Assembly: GCA_903875555.1 (NCBI GenBank)
Contig: CAIQWN010000033.1
Span: forward strand, 1 to 39,832
Length of the DNA stretch: 39,832 bases
Reading direction: 5' to 3'
Source of the DNA: an uncultured bacterium
Lineage (GTDB): Bacteria; Patescibacteriota; Minisyncoccia; Phycocordibacterales; UBA5272
Shown: positions 16,750 to 21,548 of the stretch, piece by piece
Layout of the letters: every line of letters begins with the position of its first letter
Numbering within the stretch: position 1 is the first letter of the stretch
Notes under the pieces: model-generated
Told to the model about the DNA's origin: nothing
Seen by the model: the letters and a program-made list of their open reading frames with translations, nothing else
Database searches by the model: none
Position numbers and translations under genes: made by a program

Positions 16750-17292
16750 TTATTTTTTGTCTGTCTTGTTAGCCTCTCTAATTTCTTCTTCTGTAAATTC
16801 TTCGAAATCAAAACCAATATCAGTAAAAAGTACACCATCTAAGTGATCCATTTCGTGTTGAAAGATGTGAGCGATAAGACTAGATGCTCCATAGGAAAAT
16901 TTATTTCCATTTTCGTCGTAAGCCTCAATGGTTACATTCGTTGCTCTTTCTGTCTTTCCATATATCCAACGAACAGATAGGCATCCTTCTTGAACGATAG
17001 CTTTCTTTTTTGAAGCTTTTGTTATTTTTGGATTTATAAAAACCAAAGGTTTCCATTTTGCGTCAGTAGGGTACGATTTTTCTGCAACAACGAAGATGCG
17101 TTTATCAATTCCGATTTGCGGAGCAGCGATAGCCACACCATCATCTTCTTTAATGAGAGCTTTCTTCATTGCAGAGATTATTTCTTTCAGTTCTTTGTTT
17201 CCGAATTCATTCTTTTTAATATCACGAGAAATAATACGGAGAGGGTTATCTTTTTTATCATCGATCTGAACTATTTTATTTGAGACAGTCAT
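16750..17292 (-). CDS. def: Peptide deformylase
   Basis: GVAIAAPQIG, EGCLSVR, QHEMDHLDG motifs. Confidence 0.93.
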   Translation of the reverse strand: MTVSNKIVQIDDKKDNPLRIISRDIKKNEFGNKELKEIISAMKKALIKEDDGVAIAAPQIGIDKRIFVVAEKSYPTDAKWKPLVFINPKITKASKKKAIVQEGCLSVRWIYGKTERATNVTIEAYDENGNKFSYGASSLIAHIFQHEMDHLDGVLFTDIGFDFEEFTEEEIREANKTDKK

Positions 17293-17306
17293 ATCTATAA
17301 TCTATC

Positions 17307-17342
17307 AATAAAAAACATAAAACACAAGGAAGTCAATGGTTT
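17307..17342 (+). repeat. 36-bp direct repeat, copy 1
   Basis: aataaaaaacataaaacacaaggaagtcaatggttt, identical to 18049-18084. Confidence 0.95.
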
Positions 17343-17416
17343 AAATATGAATGATTTACAAAATATCTGGTATGTTGTAGTGTATTAATTGAGGTTTTTA
17401 TTTTTTGGAGGACGTT

Positions 17417-17983
17417 ATGTATATAGACTTATCTGATATGGATACATTCAACTCCTTGCCAATAGACGACAGTGTTCTTTGCGATAGGGTTGTTGAATAT
17501 TTACAAAAGTATCATTTGATTAAGGGTGACGCAACTAACTGTTCTACTCTTGCAAGATTTTTGTTTGATGGTAAGTTCGTAGAATGTTCATCTGGTAATG
17601 AATATTTTTCTTTTGAAGAAAGTTTTGTTTTTTATTCTAATCAAGAAATAAACACAGGAGACACTATATGTTTTTTATTTCACAGAAGAATTGTAAATGA
17701 TCACGAAGATATTATTACAAGGCTTTATCTTGAGATGAAAGATTCCCTCGCTAAACATTTGTTTTGTGGTGGTGGTTCTGTTTTAGTTTCTTCGTCTGAT
17801 ATAAGAACAGCTTTTAAAAATTCTCAATATGACGAGTTTCATCTTGTTGTGTGTTTGGATGGTGAGAAGAAAATGTTTATTCACCAAGATGGAATTGACG
17901 GCACGTGTTCTATTTTTACATTGAAAGATGTAAGTGGTTTTTCAAAAATCCCAGCAACTATATTATTAAGGAGGAAAAAATAA
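17417..17983 (+). CDS. Orphan protein with canonical SD
   Basis: GGAGG (17407-17411) then ATG 17417 (MYIDLSDMDTF...); followed by a terminator. No family recognised. Confidence 0.65.
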   Translation: MYIDLSDMDTFNSLPIDDSVLCDRVVEYLQKYHLIKGDATNCSTLARFLFDGKFVECSSGNEYFSFEESFVFYSNQEINTGDTICFLFHRRIVNDHEDIITRLYLEMKDSLAKHLFCGGGSVLVSSSDIRTAFKNSQYDEFHLVVCLDGEKKMFIHQDGIDGTCSIFTLKDVSGFSKIPATILLRRKK

Positions 17984-18003
17984 AAGACGATGTTTTTCGC
18001 AAG

Positions 18004-18047
18004 GTGCCACGAAGTAAATATTTATTGCGTGGCACTTATCATTTTTG
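18004..18047 (+). terminator. Rho-independent terminator
   Basis: gtgccacg (18004-18011) ... cgtggcac (18028-18035) ttatcattttt. Confidence 0.75.
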
Positions 18048-18048
18048 T

Positions 18049-18084
18049 AATAAAAAACATAAAACACAAGGAAGTCAATGGTTT
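18049..18084 (+). repeat. 36-bp direct repeat, copy 2
   Basis: Identical to 17307-17342. Confidence 0.95.
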
Positions 18085-18119
18085 TAAGTTGATTGCCATG
18101 GTGTTATAATGCGCTCACT

Positions 18120-19133
18120 ATGAGTTTTTTCTCTAAAAAAATTGGTATAGATTTGGGGACGGCAAATACTTTAGTTTTTGTTCCAGGAAAAGGAATTGTT
18201 CTTATTGAACCTTCTGTGGTGGCTGTTTCTCAAACAGAAAATAAAATATTAGCTGTTGGAAGTGAGGCGAAAGATATGATTGGAAAAACCCCTGATTCAA
18301 TTATTGCTTATCGTCCAATGCGTGACGGAGTGATCGCGGATTATCGTGTCACAGAAGCCATGCTTCGTTATTATATAAATAAGGCACTGGGCTCTTATAA
18401 TTTTTGGAAGCCGGATGTGATGATTTCTGTGCCTGCGGGTGTGACAGGAACAGAACGTCGTGCCGTTATTGAAGCTGCTATAAACGCCGGAGCAAAAAAT
18501 GCTTATGTTGTAAAAGAACCAATACTTGCAGCTATTGGTGCAGGTATTCCTATTCATGAAGCAAAAGGAAGAATGATTGTAGATATTGGAGGAGGAACAA
18601 CTGATGTGGCCGTAATTTCTCTTGGTGGTATTGTTTGTTCTACATCTGTTAAATGTGCTGGGGATAAAATTGATCAAGCGATAATTGATTATATAAAAAA
18701 GACTTATAATCTTGCAATTGGAGATCAGACAGCTGAAGAAATAAAAATAAAAATTGGATCAGCTCTTCCTATTGAAGAAGAACTTGTAATGAAAGTAAAA
18801 GGTAGAGATTTTATTGCTGGACTTCCAAGAACTGTTGAGATAAGAACAAATGAGATTGTAAAAGCTATAGATAAAGAATTACGTTTAATGGTTAAAGCAA
18901 TTAAGGATGTTCTTCAAGAAACCCCACCGGAACTTGCTAGTGATATTATTGATAATGGAATAATTATGTCAGGTGGATCATCAATGCTTGCCAATCTTCC
19001 AGATTTAGTTGAGAGAAGAACTGGTGTAAAGGCAGTACTTGCTCCTGATGCATTTTATTGTGTTGTTAAGGGAACTGGAGTTGCACTCGAACATTTGGAT
19101 ACGTACAAAAAATCTATCTTCACAAAACGCTAA
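18120..19133 (+). CDS. mreB: MreB rod-shape-determining protein (solitary paralog)
   Basis: KIGIDLGTANTLVFVPGKGIVLIEPSVVAV; MIVDIGGGTTDVAVISLGG. Confidence 0.95.
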   Translation: MSFFSKKIGIDLGTANTLVFVPGKGIVLIEPSVVAVSQTENKILAVGSEAKDMIGKTPDSIIAYRPMRDGVIADYRVTEAMLRYYINKALGSYNFWKPDVMISVPAGVTGTERRAVIEAAINAGAKNAYVVKEPILAAIGAGIPIHEAKGRMIVDIGGGTTDVAVISLGGIVCSTSVKCAGDKIDQAIIDYIKKTYNLAIGDQTAEEIKIKIGSALPIEEELVMKVKGRDFIAGLPRTVEIRTNEIVKAIDKELRLMVKAIKDVLQETPPELASDIIDNGIIMSGGSSMLANLPDLVERRTGVKAVLAPDAFYCVVKGTGVALEHLDTYKKSIFTKR

Positions 19134-19136
19134 TAA

Positions 19137-19247
19137 GGGTGTCATTCCCGCGAAAGCGGGAATCCAGTGTTAAGAATTTTAAATTTGTAATTTTTTAATG
19201 AAATACAAAATGAAACCTAGATTCCCGCTTTCGCGGGAATGACACCC
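19137..19247. mobile_element. MITE-like gene-less relative of the 9041-9398 element
   Basis: gggtgtcattcccgcgaaagcgggaat (19137-19163) / attcccgctttcgcgggaatgacaccc (19221-19247), perfect 27-bp inverted repeats. Confidence 0.75.
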
Positions 19248-19395: not shown

Positions 19396-19902
19396 ATGGC
19401 AAAGATACAAGAGTTTCAAGCGCCTAAAGATGATCTCTTTGGGTTTGATAGCAAGACAGTGAGTGTTGTTCCTGTTAGTGAAATGTTTTATGGAAAAGTA
19501 GTTGATGAAGTAATTAAAAATTATCAATCATTAATTAAAAAAATAACTGTCGACGTTGTCACAAAATATTCCATTTTATCTGGAGTGATTTTTGTTCGCA
19601 GGGGAAAGAATAGTTTTGCTTTTTATGTTCATGTTGAAACAATAAGTAAAGAAGGTATTGTAAAGTTTTCTTTCACCACTAATCGTCTTTATGGTGAGAC
19701 ATTAAGATTAAATGAATGCCTATCTTTTGTTTTACAAGAATGTGGTTTGTGTGATTTACACCAACCTCTTTCCATACACAATGGACATCTTTCTGGTTTT
19801 ATTAATATATCTGACGCTGTTTATATTCAGGAGTCAGAAAAAAGTATTGGTATGTATTATTTGAAGGATGAGATAAGTACAAAGCAAGAAGGTTTGTTTT
19901 AG
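19396..19902 (+). CDS. Orphan protein with canonical SD
   Basis: GGGAG (19385-19389) then ATG; terminator follows. No family recognised. Confidence 0.6.
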   Translation: MAKIQEFQAPKDDLFGFDSKTVSVVPVSEMFYGKVVDEVIKNYQSLIKKITVDVVTKYSILSGVIFVRRGKNSFAFYVHVETISKEGIVKFSFTTNRLYGETLRLNECLSFVLQECGLCDLHQPLSIHNGHLSGFINISDAVYIQESEKSIGMYYLKDEISTKQEGLF

Positions 19903-21148: not shown

Positions 21149-21332
21149 AACTCCTCAACTCGAAAAAGAAAAAGATTACTTTTAAATTAGTCTACGGCCA
21201 AGCCGCGAATCTGTTGATTCGTTTACGTCGTCAATAAAAAATATTTCAGAAATTAATTTTACTTGTTATAAATTAAATAGTGTGGTATTGTTTGGTGTAA
21301 GTTTCCCTAATTAATTTTTAATGGAGAAAAAA

Positions 21333-21548
21333 ATGAGCAAAGGAGAGTTTAGTGATGAGAGTGGTCTTTTTGATTCTTTTCCGGAAATTGATTTTAATCG
21401 CTTGCGTGCAAGTAAAGAAAAAGGACCTGATAACTTTTTTAGCAGAGGTGATGAGACAGATTTTGTCACACTGCCTCAGTTGTTACCAAGAAAAAAACAA
21501 GAACCATTGGATCTTGACACGATACCTTTTCTTGTGAATTTTAAGTAA
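21333..21548 (+). CDS. Orphan small protein (71 aa) with SD
   Basis: GGAG (21323-21326), 6-nt spacer, ATG 21333 MSKGEFSDESGLF...; hairpin 21573-21593 follows. Confidence 0.5.
   Translation: MSKGEFSDESGLFDSFPEIDFNRLRASKEKGPDNFFSRGDETDFVTLPQLLPRKKQEPLDLDTIPFLVNFK

Follow-up and report, generated by a model that had tools for sequence, protein, structure and literature searches.

What brought a single orphan gene between def and mreB in this small genome, probably that of a member of the Patescibacteria, framed on either side by the same 36 bp? The question reaches beyond one locus, as many orphan genes in genomes of this group have entered by a route that is unknown, and a clean, apparently recent scar makes it possible to test how a gene can be gained without a mobile element. 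The window analysed here (39,832 bp) is the whole of contig C33 in a fragmented assembly of 45 contigs and 714,378 bp (G000). The 36-mer (AATAAAAAACATAAAACACAAGGAAGTCAATGGTTT) occurs on the forward strand at 17307..17342, on the def side, and at 18049..18084, on the mreB side, as two copies with 0 mismatches where shuffled sequences led us to expect 0, and the expected number of such exact pairs is about 1e-11 genome-wide, i.e. the pair is far beyond chance. The left edge of the match is sharp and the right edge fades, with 43 of 47 positions identical. No third copy was found in the 714,378-bp genome, in which the closest other site differs at 10 positions, as many as for shuffled 36-mers, and the sequence is absent from the approximately 1.05 Mb of relatives’ sequence searched. 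With only two copies in the genome the 36-mer is not a dispersed element, and an identity as a dispersed regulatory or REP repeat was rejected. The perfect direct repeat of the original prediction is thus exact and a genome-unique pair, and it did not turn out to be the widely scattered regulatory repeat that would have spoken against that prediction.

Between the two copies, the inserted segment (17343..18048, forward strand) comprises 706 bp, lacks terminal inverted repeats, and has a GC content of 0.31 versus 0.33 for the genome. Its sole open reading frame (ORF) encodes an orphan protein of 188 aa from a rare family (17417..17983, forward strand; ATG at 17417, stop at 17983), preceded by the Shine-Dalgarno motif GGAGG at 17407-17411. 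A strong hairpin of 36 nt on the same strand follows the ORF (18002..18037; -20.5 kcal/mol, z -4.2) and is in turn followed by TTATCATTTTTG. It is a probable terminator that a simple terminator scan did not call, owing to the interrupted T-tract behind it. The predicted content of the insert, one ORF led by a Shine-Dalgarno motif together with its terminator, was therefore recovered with this reservation on the scan.

Members of the ORF family were detected in 6 of the 397 genomes of the order, the window’s genome counted, namely in G012 (40% identity), G006 (28%), and three other genomes of the order, always at unrelated loci. A contig scan for the family returned only G012 and G006 within the genus, and a wider class-level search yielded one marginal fragment. 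This rarity and scatter support the view that the DNA is an acquired orphan gene. Flanking repeats comparable to the 36-mer are absent from all homologues, hence the repeat belongs to the event rather than to the gene, and a repeat carried as cargo of the gene family was rejected. Residues invariant in the family include T40-N41-C42, G81-D82, H142, and Q157 (TNC...GD...H...Q), so the product might perhaps be a cysteine hydrolase of the NlpC/P60 or papain type. We treat this residue pattern as a lead only, given that the NlpC/P60-like or papain-like profile match was not significant (Amidase_6, E=0.05, below the cut-off) and a fold search with the structural model (pLDDT 66) gave no match; the PDB held no sequence match either. 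Two more orphan ORFs lie elsewhere in the window (19396-19902 and 21321-21548), with no Pfam match above the cut-off and no homologue in the examined parts of relatives.

The flanking genes are clearly assigned, i.e. def for peptide deformylase on the reverse strand (16750..17292; PF01327, E 1.7e-41) and mreB on the forward strand (18120..19133; PF06723, E 1.1e-133), and both are present in all 16 genomes of the genus. The original prediction started from an ancestral divergent def/mreB intergenic region, and here it failed, as no such region occurs in the genus. Instead, priA separates def from mreB in every relative that has both on one contig (14 of 14, the sister genome G006 included); it is placed upstream of def and divergent from mreB. 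A fifteenth relative (G004) falls outside this count, with priA beside def and mreB not found on that contig. In the window’s genome, priA is intact (616 aa) and follows infC-rpmI-rplT on contig C44 (G000:C44:3399-5249, L062), at a contig end that runs on into many copies of TTACTGG. Trees of both priA and def group this genome with G006 (support 99/98 and 91/94, respectively), and since G006 keeps the ancestral order, priA moved in this lineage and the def/mreB adjacency is derived. The rest of the neighbourhood is conserved, with PPIase, fmt, and def on one side and mreB and a second mreB on the other. Judged from gene order, the cassette fills the slot vacated by priA, and the scar thus coincides with the move of priA, a conserved replication gene. 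An allele with a single 36-mer and no cassette was not found, all 14 testable relatives of the genus having priA in the slot, and the direction of the event is thus one that we infer. No relative without the ORF carries two copies of the 36-mer. In other genomes the interval upstream of def is a hot spot: between priA and def, G011 carries a gene of the Fic/Doc family and G005 an orphan of 318 aa (L074:4165-4832 and L077:2632-3588).

How did def and mreB fare with a cassette between them? An extended -10-like element (TGaTAGATT, 17299..17307, reverse strand), read from the sequence and compared with relatives, lies 6 nt before the def ATG and essentially outside the repeat, and an extended -10 element conserved in the genus (TGtTATAAT, 18102..18110, forward strand) lies 9 nt before the mreB ATG, likewise outside. 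Consequently, each gene keeps its own core promoter and the 36-mer supplies the region upstream, with the -35 (upstream) portion of the def promoter region contained in the def-side copy and the mreB-side copy stopping just upstream of the mreB core promoter. This supports the predicted retention of upstream sequence by both genes, since the promoter-upstream sequence sits in the 36-mer. In a start-codon-anchored alignment the def-side copy resembled the def upstream region of G006 (p=0.02), in one post-hoc test of which other versions were not significant, and the mreB-side copy bore no resemblance to the corresponding mreB sequence of G006 (p=0.99). When all relatives were taken together, the comparisons with def and with mreB upstream regions were both non-significant. 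These alignments faintly suggest that the 36-mer may be native to def, in which case the copy at mreB would be the duplicate. Immediately ahead of def, six relatives (G001, G008, G009, G012, G013, and G014) share a strongly conserved TTTACAAAAATATGATAAAGTAG whose two hexamer-like parts are separated by only about 9 nt, unlike normal -35/-10 spacing.

Our tentative answer, to which we assign a probability of roughly 0.45, is that the locus is a lineage-specific insertion scar, i.e. priA was lost and a cassette then entered with a 36-bp target duplication. The first step is shown by comparison, priA having been lost between def and mreB and re-established beside infC-rpmI-rplT. As a result, the def promoter's upstream portion would have come to lie beside the mreB core promoter. 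A foreign segment of 706 bp, made up of the orphan gene, its promoter region, and its terminator, might then have joined a break in the short intergenic region, where staggered-break fill-in or template switching during repair would have copied 36 bp of target to both sides and thereby left def and mreB each with upstream sequence. Such a scheme would require no transposase or integrase within the segment; the duplication would be a by-product, and the insert might have been tolerated because both genes kept their promoters. That the exact repeat encloses exactly one ORF unit speaks for the insertion scar. Should the duplication stem from repair, the locus would show how a cassette can interrupt a divergent promoter region while both genes go on working.

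In the main alternative, which we consider somewhat less likely, the repeat marks the deletion of priA rather than the entry of the cassette. Here, the orphan gene would already have resided between priA and def, and upon the loss of priA a break by the mreB promoter would have been closed by copying a 36-bp filler from upstream of def, about 740 bp away. Orphan genes occupy the exact priA-def interval of G005 and G011, in the same orientation and without repeats; these orphan genes are unrelated, and the cassette may accordingly have entered before priA left. Moreover, the mreB-side copy sits exactly at the lost mreB upstream region, and a filler from def would fit the alignment of the 36-mer with the def but not the mreB upstream region of G006, with the reservation that its p=0.02 stems from a single post-hoc test that other versions did not reproduce. 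On the other hand, an intermediate in which priA adjoins the cassette is not known. Two repair-type histories thus remain, insertion with target duplication and filler at a priA deletion, and both predict the observations; we slightly prefer the insertion-first history.

Site-specific integration, in which a circular element with one 36-bp core would have been inserted at an identical chromosomal core by a tyrosine recombinase acting in trans, seems improbable. Many integrative elements are bounded by direct repeats of such length, and the genus does have tRNA-linked repeat blocks that enclose small genes (on contig C13 of the window’s genome and C10 of G003). However, the insert contains no integrase, the one tyrosine recombinase of the genome is encoded far away, there is no tRNA at the locus, and homologues of the ORF lack such cores. 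An inverted-repeat recombinase core in the 36-mer was not significant (p=0.29), and a dif/Xer site was rejected, the best dif-arm match covering 12 of 22 positions, below many random genome sites. A tyrosine-recombinase element is therefore unlikely, and so is an insertion sequence or transposon, as the insert has neither terminal inverted repeats nor a transposase. Still more doubtful is a shared operator or promoter element of def and mreB, duplicated and kept for regulation: both copies do lie upstream of the respective -10 elements, but the 36-mer occurs nowhere else in the genome or in the approximately 1.05 Mb of relatives, and the def and mreB upstream regions of relatives do not have this 36-mer in common. 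A chimeric join via a short overlap, conceivable in an assembly of 45 contigs, is least credible of all, because both flanks form one conserved neighbourhood in relatives (PPIase-fmt-def ... mreB ... second mreB) in which only the priA slot differs.

Other genes between repeats were seen in this genome and in relatives; among the latter, the comparison of intergenic repeats present in two copies covered nearly all of G002 and portions of G003 and G006. A Phd/ParE toxin-antitoxin pair (G000:C9:7685-8385, L090) is bounded by two identical 48-bp copies of a sequence that occurs at no other place, a REP-like repeat variant with a unique internal stretch, and is a possible second case of an insertion scar. 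Likewise, a YjdM (PhnA-domain) gene (G000:C18:14617-15029, L099) is enclosed by 39-bp copies of the REP-like repeat, with compensatory differences in their outer stems (CCCG/CGGG and CCTG/CAGG). As both pairs are variants of a dispersed REP-like repeat, they are weak parallels and suggestive only. An inverted pair of such REP-like repeats (gtcattcccgcgaaagcgggaatccag) follows mreB in the window (19141-19243), and about 48 of them are spread over the genome. Further arrangements are of other kinds. A repeat of 110-123 bp on contig C13 (G000:C13:2474-4955, L094) is present three times, starting at the 3' end of a tRNA-Ser; the copies are interspersed with small genes and another tRNA-Ser (anticodon act), and the whole looks like a tRNA-linked array of integrated units. 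In G003 (G003:C10:863-3780, L165), four repeat copies of 71-79 bp start like the 3' part of a tRNA and have small orphan genes between them; ARAGORN detected no tRNA at this block. Finally, on contig C37 (G000:C37:14962-16805), the same 23-bp promoter-like block upstream and the same repeats downstream frame each of two orphan genes that differ from one another (168 and 137 aa) and lie about 1,040 bp apart. A speculative and improbable generalization would be that single-gene cassettes enter genomes of Patescibacteria through a recurrent process that needs no integrase and creates exact target duplications of 35-50 bp, preferably at divergent promoters, such that the flanking genes stay expressed.

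The target duplications of insertion sequences typically span a few to about a dozen bp, and the element has defined ends and a transposase. The locus shares with them a direct repeat at both ends and departs from them in the 36 bp of that repeat and in the lack of terminal inverted repeats and transposase. With tRNA-targeted integrative islands of the tycheposon-like kind it has in common small cargo between direct repeats, but the site lacks a tRNA gene and the insert lacks an integrase. Xer/dif (pdif) modules are similar in carrying one or two genes between short direct sites, whereas the 36-mer fits dif arms at no more than 12 of 22 positions. Alike in anatomy is insertion with long target duplication, reportedly described by Nobusato et al. 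in 2000 (Gene 259:99), with which the locus shares a transposase-free gene unit bounded by a long direct repeat. This type of insertion was recognized from the comparison of two Helicobacter pylori genomes and often involves restriction-modification genes (PMC1643837, PMC3031569). The Helicobacter cases were shown by an empty site in a second strain and concern mainly restriction-modification genes, whereas here no empty site was found and no function is assigned to the gene. Overall, the locus has the look of a scar from gene insertion or repair of an unusual kind that has been described before, and not of a new transposon.
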